A stretch of 64,000 nt of DNA. It comes from Halopiger goleimassiliensis. GTDB lineage: Archaea > Halobacteriota > Halobacteria > Halobacteriales > Natrialbaceae. A model generated the notes under the pieces. It had not been told where the DNA came from. It saw only the letters and a program-made list of their open reading frames with translations, and searched no databases. Both the position numbers and the translations under genes were made by a program. This document shows, piece by piece, positions 10,208 to 54,106 of the stretch. The stretch spans positions 62,001 to 126,000 of the forward strand of contig NZ_HG315690.1 of the NCBI RefSeq assembly GCF_000455345.1. The letters are read 5' to 3'. How positions within the stretch are numbered: the first letter of the stretch is position 1; the number at the start of each line of letters is the position of its first letter.

Positions 10208-12052
10208 TTACCGGTAGGTCTCCTGTTCGGCGACGGCGACCTCGGTTCCGTCGACGCTCGCGTAGATCCGTGCGTCGTCGCGTTCGAAGGTGATCCCGTC
10301 GATCTCGACCGACGCGTTGGCTTCCGGAATCGGGGCCGTCTCGAACGGCTCCTCGTCGTCGCGAGAACCGACGCCGATGACGAACTCGCCCTCGTGTGGG
10401 ACGAGCGCGACGGAGCGATCGTCGATACGGACGTCCGCGTACTCGCCGCCGGATTCGTAGGCGAGTTGGGGCGCTTCACCGTCGGCCCAGAGGTGGATCT
10501 GGTAGACGGTGCCGTTTCCGACGGGGGTCCAGCCCCGCCGTTCGGCGTGGACCGTCTCGCGCCAGCCGGGGCCGCCGACGACGATCGACGCCTGGCCGGC
10601 GTACTCGAGGTAGTCGGCCGAGACCACCTCCCACCACATGTTGCGCTCCTCGCTCGAGACGATCACGCCGTAGGCCTCGAGACCGGCGTTGTCGGTGATC
10701 GCCTCGATCCCGATGCCGGAGACCAGCTGGTTCTCGACGCCTTCGCCGTACTCGACCGTGTAATCCGCGACGTCGACGGACGTCTCGCCGGCGGCGGCCG
10801 GATCCGAGAGCACGAACAGGTTCGTCGGGATCGCCATCCCTGCGACGATTGCGAGGACTACCACGACGGCGGTGAAGGCCGCGCCGCGGCAGGTCTTCGG
10901 TGAGAGCGGCTTGGCGAGGGACCGTCGGGTCCCGGTCGTCAGCGCCCGAACGCGCTCGAATCGCGGGGCGCTCGCGTCGTCTCGATAAGCCCCCTGGGCG
11001 AGCTCGAGCGGACGGACGACCGCCGAGCGAATCACGTCGGCCGACGCGGGGGTCTCGGGGTCCGAGACGTCGTCCCGGGACCGGAGAGGCCGTGTCGAAG
11101 CCGTGATCGCGACCGTGATGACGACGGCAAGCACGAGAACGACCACGATACCGGGTCCCCGAAGGAGGTAGAAGGCGTTGCCCTCGCCGAACCAGTAGAT
11201 CTGCCAGAGCCCCTTGTAGAACGCAAACAGCGCGATCGCGACCCAGAGGCGGACTGGATTCCCCTGCTCTCCGCGGCGCTGGAGCAACACGATGCCGAGC
11301 ACGAGTCCGACGAGAAAGCCCAGCGCGTGGCCCTGGATGGCGACGTTGGCCCACGACGGTGCCGTCGGGGGGCTCGGTTCGGCGACGTAGTAGAGGATCG
11401 GCGTCTCGAGCGTACGATAGAGCGTCAACACCGCACTCTGGACCAGGGTGGACGCGACCAGGGTCCCGATCGGATACCTGACGATGGCGAAGCCGGCGAA
11501 GGCGTAGACGACCCCGGAGAAGCCGATCACGGGGCCGAGCGAGAAGAGGCTGGTCACCAGTCCGATGGCGACGACGACCGCCGGAAACACCACGACTGCG
11601 CGAACCCAGGGGGTGTGCCACCGGGCGGTCGACGCTGCGGCGCTCGAACTGCCGGTCGCCTCGCCGTTCCGACCGTCGGGATAGTGGCCCCAGACGAACT
11701 CGGCGATCGGCGCGACGACGAGCGTCCCGGCGAGGTTGCCGATCAGGTGGCCGGCGTCGACGTGGGCGAACGAACCGACCGCCATCCCGAGCGGCGAGAA
11801 GTACGACCAGGCCCGGAACGGGATCGACACCGGGTCCGAGAACGCGGTGATGCCGTCCTGGACGAACAGATAGACAACCAGAACGAACGCCATCACGACG
11901 AACGTTCCCCAGGGAACCCCGTACACCAGCCGCGAGGACGCCACTTCGTACCAGCCGCGATCGGGGTCGTGAAGTCGCCTGACCACGGCGACCGAACCGA
12001 GCACGGTCAGGAGTGCCAGAGCCGTGAGTGCGACCCCAACGAGCGACGACAT
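10208..12052 (-). CDS. Large rhomboid intramembrane serine protease
   Basis: 614 residues. The catalytic serine lies in GFSGVVYA (the family G-x-S-G), and the partner histidine in [14 protein letters not shown]; an earlier H-x4-N-like segment, [11 protein letters not shown], matches the oxyanion helix. Extra helices surround the six-helix core: two before it (~1-25, ~45-68) and two after it (~280-350). A further helix (~415-435, [18 protein letters not shown]) leads to a ~175-residue soluble, probably external, beta-rich domain. Rhomboids cleave membrane helices inside the bilayer. The ATG at 12052 (MSSLVGVAL) was chosen because the 31 residues before it are charged and overlap the opposite gene's promoter. 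Divergent from rpoL. Confidence 0.85.
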
Positions 12053-40678: not shown

Positions 40679-41263
40679 TTACGGCCCGTCCTCGAGGACG
40701 GGGCGGGTCTCCTCGTTGAACAGGTCGATCGCCCGGACGACCTGGGTCGGCAGTTCGGGTTGGGGGTCGGCCATCGCGGGTTCGTCGTCGGGGTCGGGCC
40801 AGCCGACGACCACCCGGCCGACGTTGCCGGCGACCTCGTGGGAGGTACAGACCTGCTGGGTGTCGACGTAGTCGTAGACGCCCGCCTGGTCGAACGTCCG
40901 CTCGTAGGACGAACCGACGCCCGACAGCCGTTCGCTCCCCCAGGGGTCGACCCCGTCGGGCGTTCGGTGCGGCCCGTGGCCGTCCTCGTGGTAGCCGGTG
41001 ACGTCGTGGCGGCCGGTCTCGACGAGCCACTCGACGGTCCCGCCTTCGACGACGTGGACCACCTGCGGTTCGAACTCCGGGTGTGGCTGGGAGTTCGCCG
41101 TCACCGTGATCCGGTGGGTTGGCGAGCCCAGTTCGCCCGTGCCGTCACCGTCCGTTTGCCACTCCTCGAGGCGTCGCTCCGCGTCCTCGAGACAGCCCGC
41201 GAGGGCGAGTCCGACCGCGGATGCGGACGCCTGCAGGACGGTACGACGGGAGACGTGGGTCAT
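40679..41263 (-). CDS. Halocyanin-domain blue copper lipoprotein, copy 1
   Basis: 194 residues. SRRTVLQASASAVG is a Tat signal with lipobox LAGC (C24). The plastocyanin-like domain begins TVTANSQPHPEFEPQVVHVVEGGTVEW; type 1 copper ligands are expected at H86 (GRHDVTG), C139 (QVCTSH) and H142. The axial Met of halocyanins (C-x2-H-x4-M) is replaced by Asn (N147, AGNVG). A 12-residue loop (DGVDPWGSERLSG) precedes the ligand loop. The acidic C-terminus ends NEETRPVLEDGP. It follows nirK1 by 57 bases, so the pair is probably co-transcribed, and halocyanin would donate electrons to NirK. Its 3' 210 bases are almost identical to copy 2. Confidence 0.88.
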   Translation of the reverse strand: MTHVSRRTVLQASASAVGLALAGCLEDAERRLEEWQTDGDGTGELGSPTHRITVTANSQPHPEFEPQVVHVVEGGTVEWLVETGRHDVTGYHEDGHGPHRTPDGVDPWGSERLSGVGSSYERTFDQAGVYDYVDTQQVCTSHEVAGNVGRVVVGWPDPDDEPAMADPQPELPTQVVRAIDLFNEETRPVLEDGP

Positions 41264-41320: not shown

Positions 41321-42403
41321 TTACTGCGGGTCCTCGTCGTAGATCTCGGGGTTCTCCTCGCCCTGGACGTCGACCACGGCGAGTGCGCCCTTGTGGACGA
41401 CCCGGCTGAGCGCGTGGTCGACGATTTTGACCGGGCCGGGGACGTGGAACTCCATCTCGCCGACCGTGGTCGTTCCGGGGGTGACCGGTGCCGTCTCGAT
41501 GTTCTTGTCGGGTTCCGATAGCAGGTCGCCGTCGCGGTAGTAGTTGCTCCAGACGTTGCCGATCGGGTGGAGCGCGCTGGTCAGGTTGGGACCGCCGTTG
41601 GCGAAGTAGACCCGGGCGGTTTCGCCGACTTCGGCCTCCATCGGTCCGACGCCGTCCTCGGTGAGCCCGTAGGCCTGGCCGTTGAACACCACGTACGTCG
41701 GATCTTCGCGTTTCATCGCGTCGAAGTCGAAGCCGTGGTGACCCTCTTCGCCGACTTTGCCGTCGGTGTAGAGCTCGTGCTGGCCGAGGTAGTACTCGTT
41801 GTCCACCTCGGGCAGGCCCTCCTCGGGTTCGACGAGGATCGTGCCGAACATGCCGGAGCTGATGTGGTGGTCCATGTTCGGGACCGCACAGTGGTAGATG
41901 AACGCCCCGGCGTACTCGGCCGTGAAGCTGATCTCGGCCGCCTTCTCGCCCGGTGTGATGGTGGTGGCGTCGGCACCACCACCGGGGCCGTAGACCGCGT
42001 GGAAGTCCACGTTGTGGAGGGTCATGTTCATCTCCTCCGGCACCTCGAATCGGAGGTTGACCCTGTCGCCCCGGCGGACGCGGACCATCGGCCCGGGCAC
42101 CTGGCCGCCGAAGGTCATGAAGTCGAACGTGACTCCAGGTTCGATCTCGGCGGTCACGCGCTCCGTCTCGAGCGTGATGTCGTGTTCCCGGGGTTCGTCC
42201 CAGTCGACCGGCGGCGGGATGTCGGTCGGATCGCGAGCGATCCTGTCGGCGTCCACAGGTTCGGCCGGAGCCAGCCCCTCGTCGGTCGGTTCGGGCTCTG
42301 GCTCTTCGGTGGTCGGACTGCCGAGGCAGCCGGCGACTGCCGCGATGCCGGTGATTCCTGCGCCCTTTACGAACGTTCGACGGTTGAGCCGGTTTTGGGT
42401 CAT
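41321..42403 (-). CDS. nirK: Copper nitrite reductase NirK, copy 1
   Basis: 360 residues. Reduces nitrite to nitric oxide outside the membrane. NRRTFVKGAGITGI is a Tat signal with lipobox VAGC (C26). Two cupredoxin domains: HNVDFH (130-135) carries the type 1 His, catalytic Asp (D133) and a type 2 His; YHCAVPNMDHHISSGMFG carries the type 2 His, the type 1 Cys (C172), His and Met; LHPIGNVW the active-site His; VDHALSRVVHKGAL the last type 2 His. ATG 42403 has GAGGAG as ribosome site; the 9 residues upstream in frame are rejected. A palindrome CGAACATGTTCG lies 77 bases before it. It is first in an operon with halocyanin 1. Confidence 0.93.
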   Translation of the reverse strand: MTQNRLNRRTFVKGAGITGIAAVAGCLGSPTTEEPEPEPTDEGLAPAEPVDADRIARDPTDIPPPVDWDEPREHDITLETERVTAEIEPGVTFDFMTFGGQVPGPMVRVRRGDRVNLRFEVPEEMNMTLHNVDFHAVYGPGGGADATTITPGEKAAEISFTAEYAGAFIYHCAVPNMDHHISSGMFGTILVEPEEGLPEVDNEYYLGQHELYTDGKVGEEGHHGFDFDAMKREDPTYVVFNGQAYGLTEDGVGPMEAEVGETARVYFANGGPNLTSALHPIGNVWSNYYRDGDLLSEPDKNIETAPVTPGTTTVGEMEFHVPGPVKIVDHALSRVVHKGALAVVDVQGEENPEIYDEDPQ

Positions 42404-42770
42404 TGTCTTTCTCCTCATTCCCATATACACCTCTCATATGTACACCAATTTCGTCTTTTCCTGAATGGTGGGAACTATCCGAACATGTTCGGCATGGGGG
42501 TCGTCAACGGCTCCATCGTCAACGGCTCTCGTCGAGGCTCCGCTGCTCGTGCGCTCCCTCGTCGAAACCGGTCCGAGACCCTCCGCTTTCGTCCGACGAG
42601 GAACCCGATCTCCGTGCGCGCCGTCCGTAACGCCCTCGACTAGCCGAACACGCCGACGTGGGATGGCTCCCACCAGCGGGTACCCGCGGAACGTACTCGC
42701 GTGATGGATCGTGGCTCGAACTCGACGATCGTGGACGCTGCTCCCGCCGAACCGTCGAGTCGGCCGAAAA
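42404..42770. other. Regulatory gap between nirK1 and DUF2249 gene 1
   Basis: 367 bases with no gene. It holds the nirK1 ribosome site and the palindrome at 42480-42491. Frames in it (for example from 42465 on the plus strand) have Ser/Arg-rich shadow composition. Confidence 0.5.
42480..42491. promoter_or_regulatory. Palindromic site CGAA-N4-TTCG upstream of nirK1
   Basis: CGAACATGTTCG, a perfect palindrome (perfect over 14 bases as CCGAACATGTTCGG), 77 bases before the nirK1 ATG. It is one of six exact copies in this island. Likely binding site of an HTH-10 regulator such as the one encoded at 48190. Confidence 0.65.
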
Positions 42771-43212: not shown

Positions 43213-43881
43213 TCACAGCGCGACGTACAGCTGTCCGATGCCGGCGAGCACGAGCACGACGCCGGCGATGCGGATCACTCGATCGACGTGTTCGGCGATC
43301 CGCCCGGCGCTTATCGCGTACCCCGACGCCGTCGCGACCGTGGCGGCGACCATGAGCGCTCCGAACCCGGCGGCGTACGTCCCGAGCACCAGCGCTGCCT
43401 CGAACGGCGGCATGGTGAGCGATCGAAACGCCAGCCCCAGGAAAACGGGGAGGACGCAGGCTGTCGCCGCCAGGGCGTACATCGCGCCGAAGAGCCCGAA
43501 TCCGAGGACGGTCGATCGCCGTTCGGGCAGGAGGACGTGCACGGCACCGCTACCGCCGTACAGCACCCACAGCCCGAAGCCGATCAGGGCGACGCCGACG
43601 CCGTACTCGAACAGCGGCAGCGCCCGCTCGACCGTCTCGCCGGCCACGATCGCCGCGATCGACAGCACGCCGAGGACGGCCATCGCGCCGACGGCCGCCG
43701 CGATCCCGCGAGCGAGCGTCCCGGATAGCGGCGGCCTCGTCTCCTCGCCGGTCGCGGCGACGTAGTAACCGACGTACCCCGGAAGCAGGGCGTAGGCACA
43801 CGGCGAGAAGAACGTCGCCACGCCGACGCCGAGGGCGAACGCCATCGTCCCGAGGAGTTCGCCGCTCACCATCTCACCCAC
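43213..43881 (-). CDS. CcdA/DsbD-like transmembrane disulfide carrier
   Basis: 222 residues, six membrane helices. CcdA moves reducing power across the membrane by a pair of membrane cysteines, seen here in FFSPCAYALLPGYVGYY and ATACVLPVFLGLAF. It would reduce a thioredoxin-like partner outside the cell for copper-site or cofactor assembly. It overlaps the end of the TlpA gene by 8 bases, so the order SCO-TlpA-CcdA is one operon. Confidence 0.9.
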   Translation of the reverse strand: MGEMVSGELLGTMAFALGVGVATFFSPCAYALLPGYVGYYVAATGEETRPPLSGTLARGIAAAVGAMAVLGVLSIAAIVAGETVERALPLFEYGVGVALIGFGLWVLYGGSGAVHVLLPERRSTVLGFGLFGAMYALAATACVLPVFLGLAFRSLTMPPFEAALVLGTYAAGFGALMVAATVATASGYAISAGRIAEHVDRVIRIAGVVLVLAGIGQLYVAL

Positions 43882-45322: not shown

Positions 45323-45910
45323 TTACGGCCCGTCCTCGAGGACGGGGCGGGTCTCCTCGTTGAACAGGTCGATCGCCCGGACGACCTGGGTTGGCAGTTC
45401 GGGTTGGGGGTCGGCCATCGCGGGTTCGTCGTCGGGGTCGGGCCAGCCGACGACCACCCGGCCGACGTTGCCGGCGACCTCGTGGGAGGTACAGACCTGC
45501 TGGGTGTCGACGTAGTCGTAGACGCCCGCCTGCTCGAAGGTCTGCTCGTACGAGGAGCCGACACCGGACAGTCGTTCGCTCCCCCAGGCGTCGACGCCGT
45601 GCGGGGACCGGTGTGGGCCGTGCCCGTCCTCGTGGTAGCCGGTGACGTCGTGGCGGCCGGTCTCGACGAGCCACTCGACGGTCCCGCCCTCGACGACGTG
45701 GACGACCTGCGGCTCGAACTTCGGGTGTGGCTGGGAGTTCGCCGTCACCGTGGTGCGTTCGGCAGGCGTTCCCAACGCTCCTGCGTCCTCCGGCGGCTGT
45801 CCGTCGCCGTCGCTGCCTCGATCGGTCGTGCCCTCGAGACAGCCCCCGAGAGCGACGCCGACCGCGATCGCTGCCGATCGGAGCGCGGTTCGGCGGGAGA
45901 CGTGGGTCAT
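45323..45910 (-). CDS. Halocyanin-domain blue copper lipoprotein, copy 2
   Basis: 195 residues, same plan as copy 1: Tat signal SRRTALRSAAIAVG with lipobox LGGC, an acidic linker (GSDGDGQPPEDAG), then the cupredoxin domain TVTANSQPHPKFEPQVVHVV, ligand His in GRHDVTG, and QVCTSHEVAGNVG with Asn in place of the axial Met. It follows nirK2 by 42 bases in the same direction and presumably is its electron donor. The last 210 bases match copy 1 with a single difference, while the 5' half is clearly diverged. Confidence 0.88.
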   Translation of the reverse strand: MTHVSRRTALRSAAIAVGVALGGCLEGTTDRGSDGDGQPPEDAGALGTPAERTTVTANSQPHPKFEPQVVHVVEGGTVEWLVETGRHDVTGYHEDGHGPHRSPHGVDAWGSERLSGVGSSYEQTFEQAGVYDYVDTQQVCTSHEVAGNVGRVVVGWPDPDDEPAMADPQPELPTQVVRAIDLFNEETRPVLEDGP

Positions 45911-45952: not shown

Positions 45953-47050
45953 CTAGGGATCCTCGTCGTAGACGTCGGGGTTCTCTTCGCCCTGGACGTC
46001 GATGACGCCGAGTGCGCCCTTGTGGACGACCCGGCTGAGCGCGTGGTCGACGATCTTGACCGGGCCAGGGACGGGGAACTCCATCTCGCCGGCGGCAGTC
46101 GTCCCGGGGGCGACCGGTGCCGTCTCGATGTTCTTGTCGGGTTCCGACAGCAGGTCGCCGTCGCGGTAGAAGTCGCTCCAGACGTTGCCGATCGGGTGCC
46201 AGGAACTCATGAGGTTCGGACCGCCGTTGGCGAAGTAGACCCGGGCGGTCTCGCCGACCTCGGCTTCCATCGGCCCGACGCCGTCCCCGGTGAAGGCGTA
46301 GGCCTGCCCGTTGAACACCACGTAGGTGGGATCTTCGCGTTTCATCGCGTCGAAGTCGAAGCCGTGGTGACCCTCTTCGCCGACTTTGCCGTCGGTGTAG
46401 ATCTCGTGTTGACCGAGGTAGAACTCGTGGTCGACCTCGGGGAGCCCGTCTTTCGGTTCGACGAGGATCGATCCGAACATGCCGGAGCTGATGTGGTAGT
46501 CCATGTTCGGGACCGCACAGTGGTAGATGAACACGCCCGGGTATTCGGCCGAGAAGCTGATCTCGGCGGGGTCGTCGCCCGGCGCGATCGTCGTCGCGTC
46601 CGCACCGCCACCGGGACCGTAGACGGCGTGGAAGTCCACGTTGTGCATTTCCATGTTCATGTCGTCCGGGACGTCGAACGTCAGGTTGACCCGGTCACCC
46701 TGGCGGACGCGGACCATCGGCCCCGGAATCTGCCCGCCGAAGGTCATGAAGTCGAACGTGACACCAGGTTCGATCTCGGCGGTCACGCGCTCCGTTTCGA
46801 TCGTGATGTCGTGTTCGCGGGGCTCGTTCCAGGTGACCGGATCGGGGACGTCCGTGGGATCGCGGGCGATCCGATCGGCGTCGACGTCCTCGGCCGGCGG
46901 TAGTCCGTCGTCCGAACCACCCTCGGTGCCCTCGTCGGGATCTTCCGATCCGTCGCCGCCGAGACAGCCGGCAACCGCGATTGCGCTTCCCGCACCCACC
47001 GTTGTCAGGAACCGTCGTCGGGTCGAGTCGTTTCGGGTCATTGTCCTCAT
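45953..47050 (-). CDS. nirK: Copper nitrite reductase NirK, copy 2
   Basis: 365 residues. Signal TRRRFLTTVGAGSAIA with lipobox VAGC; an acidic Gly/Asp spacer follows. Copper ligands match copy 1: HNVDFH, YHCAVPNMDYHISSGMFG, SWHPIGNVW and VDHALSRVVHKGAL. The main differences are Y for H in the C-loop and a different spacer. Both copies keep the catalytic Asp of HNVDFH, so both should be active. It is coupled with halocyanin 2. No exact palindrome precedes it; only a half-site TGTTCG lies near 47119. Two start codons are possible (47050, 47041). Confidence 0.93.
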   Translation of the reverse strand: MRTMTRNDSTRRRFLTTVGAGSAIAVAGCLGGDGSEDPDEGTEGGSDDGLPPAEDVDADRIARDPTDVPDPVTWNEPREHDITIETERVTAEIEPGVTFDFMTFGGQIPGPMVRVRQGDRVNLTFDVPDDMNMEMHNVDFHAVYGPGGGADATTIAPGDDPAEISFSAEYPGVFIYHCAVPNMDYHISSGMFGSILVEPKDGLPEVDHEFYLGQHEIYTDGKVGEEGHHGFDFDAMKREDPTYVVFNGQAYAFTGDGVGPMEAEVGETARVYFANGGPNLMSSWHPIGNVWSDFYRDGDLLSEPDKNIETAPVAPGTTAAGEMEFPVPGPVKIVDHALSRVVHKGALGVIDVQGEENPDVYDEDP

Positions 47051-48105: not shown

Positions 48106-48140
48106 TAGCGGGTGCAATTCCCAGGTCGTAGGAATTCTGC

Positions 48141-48152
48141 CGAATATATTCG
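48141..48152. promoter_or_regulatory. Palindrome before the HTH-10 regulator gene
   Basis: CGAATATATTCG, exact match, ends 38 bases before the regulator ATG at 48190. A TATA element ATATA (48164-48168) lies between, 22-26 bases before the start codon, so the site abuts the basal promoter as expected of an activator. It implies autoregulation. Confidence 0.65.
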
Positions 48153-48189
48153 TAGCCATGTGGATATAGGTTCAGTTAGAAGATCCCCT

Positions 48190-48864
48190 ATGGCCCAGGC
48201 AACCCTCACGATCACGATGCCGGAACAGGTCTGGATCCAGCAGCTATCCACCTCGTATCCGGACGCGACCTTCCGCGTGCTCGCGGCCGTTCCCGGCTCC
48301 AACTCCGGGTTCGCGCTGGTACGGATCACCGGTCCCGACGTGGCCGAGGTCGTCGACGAGATGAACGACCACGCCCAGATCACCGAACTCACCCTCGCCC
48401 AGTGGAGCGAAAACGAGGCGACGGTCCACTTCGAGACCACCCAGCCGCTGTTGCTGTTCTCCTCGAAGGAGTCCGGCATGCCGATCGAACTCCCCGTCGA
48501 AATAACCGACGGCGAGGCGACCATCGAGGTCACCGGCTCCAGGGAACGGCTCGCGGAACTGGCCGAACAACTCGAGCGCTTCGGCCTGAAGTACCGGATC
48601 GAGCACGTGCGCGAGCGCCTCCACGAGAGCCAACTCCTCTCGGAGCGACAACTGGAAGTCATCGCGGCCGCCGTCGAGGAGGGCTACTACGACACTCCAC
48701 GACGGTGTTCGCTGACCGAACTCGCCGAACAGCTCGGCATCGCGAAATCGACCTGCAGCGAGACGCTCCACCGCGCCGAAGAGGCGATCATCAAGCGGTT
48801 CGTCGAGGACGTCCCCGGGCTCGAGGACGAACAGTCCCTCGAGGAACAGCTGGCGACGAGTTAA
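48190..48864 (+). CDS. HTH-10 family regulator of the denitrification island (DmsR/NarO-like)
   Basis: 224 residues. The N-terminal region (~1-150) starts MAQATLTITMPEQVWIQQLS and has two alternating alpha/beta units (FRVLAAVPGSNSGFALVRI; TVHFETTQPLLLF). The C-terminal HTH_10 domain is LLSERQLEVIAAAVEEGYY, DTPRRCSLTELAEQLGIAK and STCSETLHRAEEAIIKRF. Related haloarchaeal regulators DmsR and NarO activate anaerobic respiration; NarO carries an N-terminal cysteine-rich sensor, absent here, so this one is closer to DmsR-type. Its gap carries two palindromes and it stands among the target-like promoters, so I infer it binds CGAA-N4-TTCG. ATG 48190 fits its TATA box. Confidence 0.82.
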   Translation: MAQATLTITMPEQVWIQQLSTSYPDATFRVLAAVPGSNSGFALVRITGPDVAEVVDEMNDHAQITELTLAQWSENEATVHFETTQPLLLFSSKESGMPIELPVEITDGEATIEVTGSRERLAELAEQLERFGLKYRIEHVRERLHESQLLSERQLEVIAAAVEEGYYDTPRRCSLTELAEQLGIAKSTCSETLHRAEEAIIKRFVEDVPGLEDEQSLEEQLATS

Positions 48865-49020: not shown

Positions 49021-49038
49021 GGGCGAATATGTTCGCCC
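49021..49038. promoter_or_regulatory. Extended palindrome upstream of the FeS-NrfD operon
   Basis: GGGCGAATATGTTCGCCC is a perfect 18-base inverted repeat around the exact motif CGAATATGTTCG (49024-49035). It lies about 150 bases before the first gene, farther than the others, so it may act through the nearer site at 49115 or a more distant start. Confidence 0.6.
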
Positions 49039-49188: not shown

Positions 49189-50787
49189 ATGAGCGCGGAC
49201 GACGAATCGTTCCACCCGCTCGGCAGTGAGTGGGAAGGTGAACTCGAGTCGATGCTCGACGAGACCGAGTACGACACGGATCTCGGTCTCGAGATGGCCA
49301 AGGACGCCATGCGCGTCACGAAGGGCGAACTGTCCGAGGCCGAATTCCACGAGAAGTACCACGAGGACGTGATGGCGGAGTTCGGCGAGGACCAGCGCCC
49401 GACCCAGGAGGCCTTCGAGGAGGCCCAGGCCGTCGAGGAGGGCACGTTCTCCCGGATGCTCGAGAAGTTCGACGGCGACGGCGAGGAAGGCCGTCGCGAC
49501 GTGATGAAGAAGATGGGTGCCGGCGCGGCGTTCCTCGGTCTCGGTGCGTGGGGAGCCGCCGACGGCTCCGACCCCGAACCGAACGTCGCCGCCGCAGAGG
49601 ACGACCACGGCGACGACGACGGCCTCCAGTGGGGGATGACGATCGACCTCGAGCAGTGTGACGGCTGTCTCTCCTGCATGCAGGCCTGTGGAATGGAGAA
49701 CAACCTCGACCAGGGGGTCAACTGGATGTACGTCCTCGATTACGAGGACGGCGGCCCGGACACCAGCCAGAACCGTCTCGTCCGGCCGTGTCAGCACTGT
49801 ACCGACGCGCCGTGTGAGAAGGTCTGTCCGACGACGGCCCGGCACACCCGCGACTCGGACGGCCTCGTGCTGACCGACTACGACGTCTGTATCGGCTGCC
49901 GGTACTGCCAGGTCGCCTGTCCCTACGGCGTCAACTACTTCCAGTGGGACGAACCCGACATCTCGACGGACGAGATCGCCGCGCAGGCCGAGCGAGAAGG
50001 GATGAACGGCGATCACATGACCGACGAACGCGGTCGCTGGGTCGACAGCCGTGCGCCTCGCGGCGTGATGAGCAAGTGTACCATGTGCCCGACGCGCCAG
50101 GACGGCCACATGGGCGATGAGAAACGCGGAACGACGGCCTGTGAGGACGCCTGTGACCCTGGTGCGATCCAGTTCGGCGACGTGAACGACGAGCGCAGCG
50201 ACGCCGGCATGTACAAGAAGAACCCCAGCCGTGGTCGCGCCCTGTGGGGCCTCCACGGGGACGTCCCCGATCCGGACGCCCTCGCCGAAGAACTCTCCGA
50301 CTCCGACGACGACCTCGAGTCGATCGTCGAGGCCTCGGAGGAACTCGACGAGGACCTGATCGCCCGCGCTATCGCCATCGAGATGACCGGCGAAGAGATG
50401 GGCGAAGGGCCGGAACACGGCACGAGCAACCTCGCCGAGACCGAACGCGACATCCTCGAGTTCCTCGAGTTCCTCTCCGACCAGGGGCTCGACCTCGAGG
50501 ACGAGGAACTGCTCGACGAACTCGGTATCTCGGACCCGCAGGACTACCTCGAGGCTCAGGAAGGCAACCCCGAGTCGAACTTCAACCTGCTCGACGACAT
50601 CGGGACGAACCCGAACGTTCAGTACCTCGGCAACGAGCCCGGACCACACGCCGAGCAGGTCGAGGGTCCCGTGGCGTACGAGGACGTGATCTACCCGCGC
50701 GCTGACGAGGAAACCGTGAACCTGGTCGACAAGCGCCAGGAGGTCCTCAACGAAGGGACCGTCGGAGACGCGGGGGTGTCGCTATGA
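49189..50787 (+). CDS. Four-cluster 4Fe-4S electron-transfer protein (DmsB/NrfC/PsrB type) with long N-terminus
   Basis: 532 residues. The core (~150-345) has four cysteine groups as in DmsB and PsrB: CDGCLSCMQACGMENN, CQHCTDAPCEKVCP, CIGCRYCQVACPYG, and CTMC...CEDACDPGA. Before it is a ~100-residue acidic helical preamble, then GRRDVMKKMGAGAAFLGLGAWG (102-122), which looks like a Tat signal placed unusually deep in the chain. After the clusters comes a ~190-residue acidic, helical C-terminal extension. It should pass electrons between a quinol site in the next gene's protein and a soluble partner. No molybdopterin subunit is encoded beside it. Its stop overlaps the NrfD start by four bases (ATGA). 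Confidence 0.85.
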   Translation: MSADDESFHPLGSEWEGELESMLDETEYDTDLGLEMAKDAMRVTKGELSEAEFHEKYHEDVMAEFGEDQRPTQEAFEEAQAVEEGTFSRMLEKFDGDGEEGRRDVMKKMGAGAAFLGLGAWGAADGSDPEPNVAAAEDDHGDDDGLQWGMTIDLEQCDGCLSCMQACGMENNLDQGVNWMYVLDYEDGGPDTSQNRLVRPCQHCTDAPCEKVCPTTARHTRDSDGLVLTDYDVCIGCRYCQVACPYGVNYFQWDEPDISTDEIAAQAEREGMNGDHMTDERGRWVDSRAPRGVMSKCTMCPTRQDGHMGDEKRGTTACEDACDPGAIQFGDVNDERSDAGMYKKNPSRGRALWGLHGDVPDPDALAEELSDSDDDLESIVEASEELDEDLIARAIAIEMTGEEMGEGPEHGTSNLAETERDILEFLEFLSDQGLDLEDEELLDELGISDPQDYLEAQEGNPESNFNLLDDIGTNPNVQYLGNEPGPHAEQVEGPVAYEDVIYPRADEETVNLVDKRQEVLNEGTVGDAGVSL

Positions 50788-52151
50788 GCACGAAGACGCC
50801 CTCGGAGGAGGACATCCTCCGTCCGGTCAACCTGTTCACGAAGAAGTACCTGATCCTGTTTGGCATCTGCGCCCTGGCGTTCGGAGCGTACCTCGTCGCG
50901 TGGGCCTACCAGCTCCAGCAAGGGCTGATCGTCACCGGCCTCGGCGACTGGGGGACCGGCGGCGGCGCGACGTGGGGCCTGTACATCGGCGCGTTCATCT
51001 GGTGGGTCGGCATCGCCCACGGGGGGATCATCCTCTCGGCTGCGGTGCGCCTGCTCGGGATGGACCGCTACATGCCGGTCGCACGACTGGCCGAGATGTT
51101 GACGCTGGCCGGCCTCTCTGCCGCCGGCTTCTACATCCTGGTCCACATGGGTCGACCGGACCGGATGGTGACGAGCATCATCGGTCACTACCACATCACG
51201 GTCAACAACTCGCCGCTGGTGTGGGACGTGACGGTCATCACGGCCTACTTCGTGATGACGGCGACCTACCTCGGGCTGACGTTGCGCTACGACGTCAACC
51301 GCCTGCGCGATCAGCTGCCGGACCGCTTCGAGCCGATCTACAAGATCATGACGATCGGCTACACGAAAGAGGAAGACGAGGTCATCGAGCGGATGGTCTG
51401 GTGGCTGGCCGCTGCGGTCATCATCATGGCCCCGCTCCTGCTCCACGGTGGCGTCATTCCGTGGCTGTTCTCGCTGCTGCCGGCGATGCCGGCCTGGACC
51501 GGGGCGATCCAGGGGCCGCAGTTCCTCTCGATCGCACTGACCTCGGCGATCAGCGGCGTGATCCTCGTCGCCGCGGCGTTCCGCCGCGCCTACGACTGGG
51601 ACCACATCATTACGGACGACATCTTCCGTGGCCTGCTGCTGTGGCTCGGATTCTTCTGCCTGCTGTTCCTGTGGTTCCAGCTGCAACAGCTGGTCAACGG
51701 CTCGTTCCTCGGGCCGGTCGACCAGGCCGAGGCCACCGCGCACAAGCTCGAGCACCCGATCTACATCATCTCGATGCTGATGGTGCTTGGAGTGCTCGTG
51801 TTCATCTTCCTGCAGGGGATCCGTCCCGCGCTGTTCAGCAAGGCCCGCGCCATCGGTGCCGGCCTCGTCGTGCTGACGGCGACCTTCCTCGAGAAACTGC
51901 TGTTCGTCGTGGAAGGGTTCATGGATCCGCACTTCAACATCTACGCTGCCACGCCCGGAGAGTACTTCCCGAGCGCGATCGAGTGGATGTCGCTGGCCGG
52001 CACGATCGGGTTGGTCGTGCTGTTCTTCATGGTTCTCTCGCGGTTCGTCCCAGTGGTCGAACTCCACGCGATCGAACACCTCCGGGGCGACCACGGCCAC
52101 GGCCACGAAGAACCGGCTGACTCAGCTACCGAACAAGAGGTGAAAGCATGA
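50784..52151 (+). CDS. NrfD/PsrC-family quinol-binding membrane subunit
   Basis: 455 residues with about ten membrane helices. Typical NrfD features: the N-terminal helix (KYLILFGICALAFGAYLVAWAY) and a quinone-site segment (WWVGIAHGGIILSAAVRLLGMDRYMPVARLAEMLTLAGL, read in parts), plus PDRMVTSIIGHYHITVNNSPLVWDVTVITAYFVM. Its fold matches PsrC and ActC, which oxidise or reduce quinols in the membrane and hand electrons to an iron-sulfur partner, here the upstream gene product. It is coupled upstream (ATGA) and downstream: its stop overlaps the first small membrane protein by four bases. With menaquinone genes in the same window, menaquinol is the likely substrate. Confidence 0.88.
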   Translation: MSTKTPSEEDILRPVNLFTKKYLILFGICALAFGAYLVAWAYQLQQGLIVTGLGDWGTGGGATWGLYIGAFIWWVGIAHGGIILSAAVRLLGMDRYMPVARLAEMLTLAGLSAAGFYILVHMGRPDRMVTSIIGHYHITVNNSPLVWDVTVITAYFVMTATYLGLTLRYDVNRLRDQLPDRFEPIYKIMTIGYTKEEDEVIERMVWWLAAAVIIMAPLLLHGGVIPWLFSLLPAMPAWTGAIQGPQFLSIALTSAISGVILVAAAFRRAYDWDHIITDDIFRGLLLWLGFFCLLFLWFQLQQLVNGSFLGPVDQAEATAHKLEHPIYIISMLMVLGVLVFIFLQGIRPALFSKARAIGAGLVVLTATFLEKLLFVVEGFMDPHFNIYAATPGEYFPSAIEWMSLAGTIGLVVLFFMVLSRFVPVVELHAIEHLRGDHGHGHEEPADSATEQEVKA

Positions 52152-52462
52152 GCGTCACTACCACGTTCGCGGCCGCACTCTCGTCGATCCTCTACCACGG
52201 ATACGACGGGACCGAAGGGTTCACCGGATTCGTCAACGAGGGTACCTGGGTCATCTTCGCGTTGATCCTGGTGCCCATCTACATCATGGTCATCGCCTGG
52301 TTTACCGGTACACCGCGCGATACCAAGTCCGGGTTCCTGGGCATCTCGTACCTCGTCGGCTTCACGACGTCGATGTGGGTCGGGATGTTCTTCCTGACGG
52401 TCCTGATCGGGATCGTCTTCTACGGCGGTGCGCCGGAACCGATCGGCGCTACCGGCCCGTAA
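52148..52462 (+). CDS. Small two-helix membrane protein A of the FeS-NrfD operon
   Basis: 104 residues: LSSILYHGYDGTEGFTGFVN at the N-terminus, helix ~33-55 (WVIFALILVPIYIMVIAWF), loop TGTPRDTKSGFLG, helix ~70-92 (GFTTSMWVGMFFLTVLIGI), and the tail GAPEPIGATGP. Start ATG 52148 overlaps the NrfD stop (ATGA), so it belongs to the same complex. Role unknown; position suggests an accessory membrane subunit stabilising NrfD or contacting the donor. It is closely similar to the next gene. Confidence 0.8.
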   Translation: MSVTTTFAAALSSILYHGYDGTEGFTGFVNEGTWVIFALILVPIYIMVIAWFTGTPRDTKSGFLGISYLVGFTTSMWVGMFFLTVLIGIVFYGGAPEPIGATGP

Positions 52463-52622
52463 TACCGGTCCACAGACGGTTCGTCTTTTTTCGCGCTCAC
52501 GTCCGAAACGACCGTTCCGTACTTCTCGCGTCCTACTGCGACACCATCCACTCCGCCGAGGACGTTAACCGCTTGAACATCCATGCACCAGCACCACCGT
52601 CCAGCAAGTGATCCGTCGTGGT

Positions 52623-52928
52623 ATGGTTTCAGTCTCCGCCCTCGAGACGGTCCTCTATCACGGCTACGAGGGGACTGCCGGATTAACGGGCTTTCCGAAC
52701 ACGGGGACGTGGCTCATCTTCGGCGTCGTCCTGTTGCCGATCTACGTGATGGTCGTCGCGTGGTTCACGGGCGTTCCACGTGATCCGAAAACCGGGCTCA
52801 TCGGTGTCACCTATCTCGTGGGGCTGGTGACGTCGATGTGGGTCAGCATGCTGATCCTGACGGTCCTGCTCGGCATCGTCTTCTTCGGCGGCGCGCCCGA
52901 ACCGCTCGGGCCGACCGGCCCGACCTGA
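52623..52928 (+). CDS. Small two-helix membrane protein B, tandem paralogue
   Basis: 101 residues with the same plan as A: ALETVLYHGYEGTAGLTGFP, helix (WLIFGVVLLPIYVMVVAWF), loop TGVPRDPKTGLIG, helix (GLVTSMWVSMLILTVLLGI), tail GAPEPLGPTGPT. ATG 52623 was preferred over 52608, giving the same N-terminal form. The 160-base gap from copy A is unexplained; the copy may have its own promoter. A two-gene array of such short subunits suggests a heterodimer or alternative subunits used under different conditions. Confidence 0.8.
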   Translation: MVSVSALETVLYHGYEGTAGLTGFPNTGTWLIFGVVLLPIYVMVVAWFTGVPRDPKTGLIGVTYLVGLVTSMWVSMLILTVLLGIVFFGGAPEPLGPTGPT

Positions 52929-53014
52929 GGCCGCAGCGAATCCGGCGTTCGCGTAGCGAACCATCACACGTATCCCGTTCGGCGACCTTCTCTCGGATAA
53001 CGCAAACGCCTACC

Positions 53015-54106
53015 ATGAGTATCACCGAACACGAACTCAAGATCAGACTCGAGGAGATCGAGGATCCCGACATCGGCGAGGACATCGTCTCCCTGGGGCT
53101 GGTCAACGACGTCACCATCGAGGACGAAACCGCCAGGATCTCGCTGGCGTTGAACGCACCCTACGCCCCGTCAGAGATGGAACTGGGGAACGAAATCCGC
53201 GACCTCTGTGACGAGGTCGGCCTCGAGGCCGACCTCCGCGCACACGTCGGCGAGGAACACGGGTTCGACGATACGGTCCTCCCCCGGGTTCGCAACGTCA
53301 TCGCCGTCTCCTCCGGGAAGGGCGGCGTCGGCAAGACCACCGTCGCGGCCAACCTCGCGGCCGGCCTCGAAAAGCGCGGCGCGATGGTCGGCATCCTCGA
53401 CGCGGACATTCACGGCCCGAACGTGCCCCGCATTCTGCCGGTCGAGGGCGAACCGGGCGTCATGCCCAACGAGGACATCGTCCCGCCGCGCTCCGACGGC
53501 GTCCGCGTCATCAGCATGGGCTTCATGACCGAGGAGGAGGACGACCCCGCCATCCTGCGGGGACCGATGGTCAACAAGTTCATGATGAAGTTCCTCGAGG
53601 GCGTCGAGTGGGGCCGCCTCGACTACCTCATCGTCGACCTGCCCCCGGGCACCGGCGACGCGACGCTAAACCTGCTGCAGTCGATGCCCGTGACGGGATC
53701 GGTCGTCGTCACGACGCCTCAGGAGATGGCTTTAGACGACACCCGAAAGGGGATCCAGATGTTCAACAAGCACGATACGCCGGTACTGGGCGTCGTCGAA
53801 AACATGAGCTCGTTCGTCTGTCCATCCTGTGGCGATCAGCACGGCCTGTTCGGGACGGAAGGAGCCGACGCCATCGTCGAGAACTACGACGTGCCGCTGC
53901 TGGGCCGCATCCCGATCCACCCCGACTTCGGCGCGGACGACACGGCCGGCCCGCTCGTCAAGGACGACGACAGCCCGGTCCAGGAGTACGTCGAGGACGT
54001 CGTCGGCGAGGTCGCCGACCGGATCGGCGAGACGAACCGACGCATCGTCGCCGAACACACCGACGACGAACCGTTCGACACGCTCCCGACCGAGACCGAG
54101 GACTGA
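53015..54106 (+). CDS. Mrp/NBP35-family iron-sulfur scaffold ATPase
   Basis: 363 residues. The N-terminal ~90 residues are a DUF59 (MIP18-like) domain (ELKIRLEEIEDPDIGEDIVSLGLV...). The deviant Walker P-loop is VSSGKGGVGKTTVAANLA (~98-115), with switch ILDADIHGPNVPRIL and DLPPGTGDATL. The cluster-binding Cys pair lies in VCPSCGDQ (~270). The family holds and transfers 4Fe-4S clusters; next to a four-cluster protein it may assemble that subunit. Starts at ATG 53015, 86 bases after small protein B, the same strand, so it may be last in the operon. Confidence 0.92.
   Translation: MSITEHELKIRLEEIEDPDIGEDIVSLGLVNDVTIEDETARISLALNAPYAPSEMELGNEIRDLCDEVGLEADLRAHVGEEHGFDDTVLPRVRNVIAVSSGKGGVGKTTVAANLAAGLEKRGAMVGILDADIHGPNVPRILPVEGEPGVMPNEDIVPPRSDGVRVISMGFMTEEEDDPAILRGPMVNKFMMKFLEGVEWGRLDYLIVDLPPGTGDATLNLLQSMPVTGSVVVTTPQEMALDDTRKGIQMFNKHDTPVLGVVENMSSFVCPSCGDQHGLFGTEGADAIVENYDVPLLGRIPIHPDFGADDTAGPLVKDDDSPVQEYVEDVVGEVADRIGETNRRIVAEHTDDEPFDTLPTETED

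Follow-up and report, generated by a model that had tools for sequence, protein, structure and literature searches.

A conserved FeS-NrfD operon as a candidate haem-free menaquinol:halocyanin oxidoreductase in haloarchaea lacking cytochrome b

The operon and its distribution among haloarchaea

Analysis of a 64,000-nucleotide stretch of Halopiger goleimassiliensis DNA (contig NZ_HG315690.1, positions 62,001 to 126,000; here called the window) revealed a five-gene operon which, with a probability that we put at about 0.72, encodes a haem-free and molybdenum (Mo)-free menaquinol:halocyanin oxidoreductase serving as complex III, with a high-potential iron-sulfur protein (HiPIP) as a possible alternative acceptor. 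The operon tracks the absence of cytochrome b and, within the window's family, shows no link with nirK. Because it is found in nearly all examined genomes that lack the usual enzyme, it is a strong candidate for the missing quinol-to-carrier link. Its genes are as follows.

49189..50787, + strand: iron-sulfur (Fe-S) subunit FeS, 532 amino acids (aa), with Ferredoxin_N at residues 9-73, an internal twin-arginine at 102-103 and, after it, 16 Cys for four 4Fe-4S clusters
50784..52151, + strand: NrfD, an NrfD/ActC-like membrane quinol subunit by similarity, 455 aa
52148..52462, + strand: small two-helix membrane subunit A, 104 aa, of no known family
52623..52928, + strand: small subunit B, a second copy of A (62% identity to A)
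53015..54106, + strand: Mrp, an Mrp/NBP35-type P-loop Fe-S carrier that probably acts in assembly; fourth in the conserved gene order

We searched 292 genomes alike for NrfD, Ferredoxin_N, NirK and cytochrome b (PF00033). NrfD was scored as present at E <= 1e-100, and 49 genomes with weaker matches were counted as lacking the operon. On this basis NrfD was present in 67/69 genomes without cytochrome b versus 29/223 with it. The corresponding counts were 56/56 versus 8/18 within the window's family (Natrialbaceae), 11/13 versus 21/205 outside it, and 21/23 cytochrome-b-less genera versus 14/56 at genus level (tallied by hand, with two genera on both sides). The pattern was absent from the genomes with weak NrfD matches, where 2/49 lacked cytochrome b versus 0/147 among genomes with no match; the weak matches were of the dimethyl sulfoxide (DMSO) reductase type in the genomes inspected. 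COX2 was found in 66/69 cytochrome-b-less genomes, all 66 of which carry NrfD, although a few of the 66 might have NosZ only, since PF00116 also catches NosZ. The COX2-less trio consists of G007 and G092, the only two cytochrome-b-less genomes without NrfD, and G128, which has NrfD. No PF00033 match was found in the window genome, which encodes five COX2-type proteins, all with the CuA motif C-x3-C-x3-H-x2-M and one resembling NosZ. Such proteins need a one-electron donor, and with two NirK encoded as well, the genome should have some route by which quinol reduces a one-electron carrier. nirK was tabulated for the window's family only, and strong nirK matches occurred in 34/64 genomes with NrfD versus 5/10 without (Fisher p = 1).

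As the original prediction had described, the open reading frames (ORFs) comprise FeS, NrfD, two small two-helix proteins and Mrp, without a Mo subunit. A Pfam scan of the operon proteins gave no match to PF00384 (Mo subunit), FeS being only 532 aa long, and none to a cytochrome c family. The five ORFs are closely packed, and the ATGA overlaps earlier noted for NrfD were found at FeS/NrfD and NrfD/small A. Small B begins with the ATG at 52623, 160 bases past the end of small A, and the likely start of Mrp, which ends at 54106, is the ATG at 53015 and not 52838. FeS matched Ferredoxin_N (PF16947, 1.8e-35) and 4Fe-4S domains, NrfD matched PF03916 (2.2e-20) and Mrp matched PF10609; the nearest NCBIfam models, DsrO for FeS and DsrP for NrfD, fell under their cut-offs. 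In an alignment of 17 sequences, 16/16 cluster-type Cys and the twin-arginine R102-R103 were invariant in FeS, which agrees with the four clusters assigned before. Pfam, NCBIfam and PDB searches returned no relative of the small proteins.

We then refer to operons of this kind as A type, because Natrialbaceae carry two copies: the A operon and a B pair (FeS-B and NrfD-B) that is mostly dispersed. The A-type set comprised 59 loci (window included) from Halobacteria genomes of several families, with neighbourhood genes called by a simple in-house gene caller. All 59 loci have FeS, NrfD and the small protein, and 58/59 have Mrp downstream, so the unit is FeS-NrfD-small-Mrp, with Mrp as constant as the other genes. 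NrfD identity to the window copy ranged from 87% down to 50% in the 17-sequence alignment. Among 80 loci listed, named relatives were mostly Natrialbaceae (Natrinema, Natrialba, Natronococcus, Natronorubrum, and Halostagnicola), with one Natronomonas, and a phylum-wide search matched 28/392 genomes, one of them outside the order (partial, E 3.7e-34). No conserved Mo gene beside the operon was noticed among the nearest genes of the listed loci, in keeping with the original prediction. A separate Mo operon with its own FeS-like gene lies several kb upstream in L042 (Pfam-confirmed), and an apparent one lies several kb upstream in L041, judged by the look of the translation only.

The window genome itself has a second NrfD, 2.36 Mb off, and a second Ferredoxin_N FeS gene, distant from each other and both far from the operon. 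In most family members fetched, FeS-B likewise lies apart from NrfD-B, without HiPIP, cox or NirK neighbours. NrfD-B stands apart from FeS-B in L033 (9375-10715) and L119, and in some genomes it follows a Pyr_redox_2 oxidoreductase gene. FeS-B has Asp in place of one fourth-cluster Cys in L053 (8016-9404, - strand), L103-L107, and L110, which recalls the 3Fe-4S cluster of ActB.

Relationship to alternative complex III and other systems

A profile of the 17 NrfD sequences matched only ActC in the PDB, in four structures of alternative complex III (ACIII; 1.1e-29 to 1.5e-27), and ActC was also the best fold match of the NrfD structure model (template modelling score, 0.77-0.79), with ActF next. 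The FeS profile also found ActB in four ACIII structures (1.8e-37 to 2.2e-29); a structure model of FeS was too poor to use (mean predicted local distance difference test [pLDDT] score, 54.3). With ActC reference residues taken from a portion of PMC8076601, the quinone-site residues H139, S164, and D169 were identical in 17/17 NrfD sequences. Inner-channel residues were identical at 10/13 positions in the window NrfD; of the outer-side residues, E394 is retained and K replaces R395. Compared with ActC, the possible proton path retains its inner half-channel residues and its outer ones only partly. Six haloarchaeal DmsC-position proteins keep S164 and D169, but H139 is replaced by D, H97 by A or V, E122 by V (5/6), and R395 by G (5/6). 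These residues separate NrfD from DmsC better than overall similarity does.

In a section of PMC8076601, haloarchaeal DmsC is grouped with ActC, ActF and DsrP, and ACIII is listed as a quinol:cytochrome c/HiPIP oxidoreductase; a tabulation within PMC10100899 gives ActB 0 archaeal representatives. The operon resembles ACIII in its ActC-type NrfD and in FeS, which matches the Fe-S part of ActB. Unlike ACIII, it lacks the ActA pentahaem and ActE monohaem cytochromes, the Mo-like domain of ActB, and ActF, with one NrfD per operon; FeS-A has 16 Fe-S Cys, and the carriers of the operon's system would be copper proteins or HiPIP. Haloarchaeal DMSO reductase operons also encode Ferredoxin_N, an NrfD-type subunit and an Fe-S protein related to FeS, but there Ferredoxin_N is a separate gene of ~80-120 aa and a molybdopterin subunit is present. 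Such stand-alone Ferredoxin_N genes (~80-120 aa) lie directly before molybdopterin-enzyme genes in L054-L059 and L062, so "ferredoxin N-terminal region", as Pfam calls it, is a misleading name, and the module and molybdoenzyme operons have a common ancestry. DmsABC and PsrABC differ in their Mo catalytic subunit, which is outside the conserved order in the 59 loci. With NrfCD, DsrOP and QrcCD the operon has in common a four-cluster Fe-S protein and an NrfD that move electrons between quinone and a carrier, whereas the multihaem cytochromes or other subunits of those systems are absent among the operon proteins. The haloarchaeal cytochrome bc complex (petABD) has the same presumed quinol-to-halocyanin task, as described in part of PMC8305020, but its proteins are unrelated and the two systems are largely complementary across genomes.

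Neighbouring carriers, the NirK island and regulation

Genes upstream of FeS were surveyed in 57/59 A-type loci (L052 and L089 were left out) and 3 B loci. In 10/57 A-type loci the gene directly before FeS encodes a copper protein whose ligands are His, Cys-x2-His, and axial Met or Gln; the four that were scanned (L034, L039, L040, and L048) all belong to PF00127, and L048 has a second. Among family genomes with both cytochrome b and NrfD, 7/8 have halocyanin directly upstream of FeS. The axial ligand is Gln instead of Met in five of the ten operon halocyanins (L039, L040, L066, L070, and L087); axial Gln lowers the potential in stellacyanin. Two further upstream matches were not counted: that in L042 (tblastn; 11336-11770, - strand) is a degenerate cupredoxin-like ORF that has lost its copper ligands, and that in L099 is unlike halocyanin.

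HiPIP genes were found beside the B copy. The order in L060, L113, and L114 is HiPIP, membrane protein, FeS-B, NrfD-B, small protein, and a HiPIP gene also lies by FeS-B in L061 and L112. A cox gene is near FeS-B in L061 (PF00115 and PF00510) and, by similarity to L061, in L108 and L112. Near FeS-B and the cox gene of L112, a 255-aa protein (L112:6646-7413, + strand) joins HiPIP to a cupredoxin stretch that scores below the Pfam cut-off (E 0.0017) and has the ligands H, C-x2-H, and M; to our knowledge, no such fusion has been described. A 137-aa protein upstream of L060 FeS-B was considered as a copper protein, but its sequence and Pfam identify it as HiPIP, and a HiPIP-like match in L044 was below the Pfam cut-off and was not counted. 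NirK is divergent beside FeS in L083 and L084 and lies near NrfD-B in L115 and L116.

The following features of the window lie upstream of the operon.

48112..48864, + strand: HTH_10 regulator, which adjoins the operon in many relatives
45953..47050, - strand: NirK copper nitrite reductase, a possible acceptor branch; second copy at 41321-42430
45323..45910, - strand: halocyanin-like copper protein adjoining NirK, a possible carrier; second copy at 40679-41263
49024..49035, no strand: palindrome CGAATATGTTCG, 165 bases upstream of the FeS start, which fits CGAAYATDKTYG

The NirK-halocyanin island with common palindromes that had been proposed here was recovered: both NirK scored above the TIGR02376 cut-off, two PF00127 proteins lie in the same island, and six copies of CGAAN4TTCG fall between 42480 and 49035. 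The menaquinone genes said to lie in the same window are also there, with four over cut-off (isochorismate synthase, MenD, MenA, and MenE). Both window halocyanin-like proteins have Cys-x2-His and lack the usual axial Met (CTSHEVAGN). A protein at 43213 matched neither Pfam nor NCBIfam families, and the label CcdA-like is ours; names of regulators (NarO, for example) follow published papers.

The window contains 13 copies of CGAAN4TTCG versus 2.9 expected (0/100 shuffles reach 13). In 25/60 loci the 400 bases preceding FeS contain the same palindrome (background, 0.062 per 400 bases); it was absent upstream of the three linked B loci surveyed. In the relevant section of PMC10062603, CGAAYATDKTYG is the denitrification promoter motif of Haloferax mediterranei, and its mutation significantly cut nos and nor promoter activity. 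Given this denitrification-type palindrome upstream of FeS, the A operon is probably induced without oxygen.

Alternative explanations and proposed function

The original prediction was of a menaquinol:halocyanin oxidoreductase feeding NirK. We retain its Mo-less quinol module related to ACIII and halocyanin as a plausible acceptor, but not the dedication to NirK. A complex passing electrons from menaquinol through halocyanin to NirK only would suit the NirK-halocyanin island, the HTH_10 regulator and the denitrification-type palindrome of the window, as well as the palindromes upstream of FeS elsewhere and the four loci in which NirK adjoins FeS or lies near NrfD-B. However, strong nirK is missing in 30/64 NrfD-bearing family genomes, and L061, L108, and L112 have oxidase genes close to FeS-B; the expected co-occurrence with nirK was thus not borne out, and since nirK is not associated with NrfD in the window's family, the NirK-only role, which we consider unlikely, was dropped. 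Electrons could instead flow in reverse, with the operon acting as a quinone reductase fed by a pseudo-periplasmic donor, or serve another partner, like QrcCD or DsrOP. The best NCBIfam models point that way (DsrO, DsrP, and QrcC, all below cut-off), but the loci listed show no conserved dehydrogenase, hydrogenase or sulfur enzyme next to the operon, and the recurring neighbours are high-potential carriers (halocyanin and HiPIP), NirK and oxidases; we regard this as quite improbable.

It is very doubtful that FeS and NrfD serve a Mo enzyme encoded elsewhere, in the manner of DmsABC or PsrABC. Stand-alone Ferredoxin_N before molybdopterin-enzyme genes would fit such a partnership, but the conserved gene order has no Mo gene, and the window genome has two PF00384 genes. 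One encodes a haloarchaeal NasA and adjoins a ferredoxin-nitrite-reductase-like gene; the other encodes a type II DMSO-reductase-family alpha subunit with its own beta (L218:6222-10984, - strand), the alpha being far below the narG cut-off; no orphan Mo gene was found in the window genome, and the idea of an orphan Mo partner was dropped. A published proposal, presented with proteomics of AArc strains, holds that natronoarchaea, reported to lack complex III and its alternative homologues, use quinol oxidases (a portion of PMC6176080). If bc1-less oxidases of haloarchaea likewise drew directly on menaquinol, the operon would do something else, but the CuA motif is kept in 5/5 COX2-type matches of the window genome, and the 66/66 cytochrome-b-less genomes with both NrfD and COX2 would be left unexplained; we therefore give this very little credence.

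Several observations weigh against a menaquinol:halocyanin oxidoreductase. Halocyanin is directly upstream of FeS in only 10/57 loci, and none lies directly beside the window FeS. The operon is also carried by 29/223 cytochrome-b-bearing genomes, and the co-occurrence is uncorrected on a species tree, with p-values that ignore relatedness. A control profile of the six DmsC-position proteins also matched only ActC in the PDB, with weaker scores, so overall ActC likeness does not single out the NrfD family; its value as proof of ACIII kinship was weakened by this control, and the residue comparison was used instead. Even there, ActC D253 is L in 17/17 sequences, and Y270, Y323, E326, and E338 are not kept. 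The NrfD model has a mean pLDDT of 67.6, and chain 6cz7_B, which we take to be an arsenate-reductase ArrB-type chain, scores slightly above ActB for the FeS profile.

For a menaquinol:halocyanin oxidoreductase, we propose that the subunits form one complex in which the ActC-like NrfD would oxidise menaquinol near the outer face. Electrons would then run along the four Fe-S clusters of the exported FeS, which NrfD and the small two-helix subunit would hold in place, and exit singly to halocyanin or, in some lineages, probably to HiPIP or the HiPIP-cupredoxin fusion. The carrier would pass them to CuA oxidases, NosZ or NirK; according to sections of PMC11218638 and PMC7754194, NirK or NosZ of Haloferax probably receive electrons from halocyanins. 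Mrp would supply Fe-S clusters, and the Ferredoxin_N domain may, as a guess, act in export or assembly. With somewhat less confidence than in the oxidoreductase itself, we favour the view that this is a third type of complex III, entirely free of haem and built of two or three subunits, that replaced cytochrome bc in Natrialbaceae, Natronomonas and others and may translocate protons through its ActC-like channel.

Searches of the open-licence PMC literature turned up no paper linking haloarchaeal NrfD with halocyanin or complex III. A passage of PMC8305020 states that ~1/3 of haloarchaea, especially Natrialbales, lack petABC and calls electron flow there unresolved, and part of PMC3403918 likewise calls menaquinone-to-halocyanin flow unresolved for three species, including N. 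pharaonis. The operon is a concrete candidate for this menaquinol-to-halocyanin step in bc1-less haloarchaea. If this is true, a haem-free, Mo-free member would join the quinol:carrier oxidoreductases, and ACIII-like machinery would be extended to archaea.

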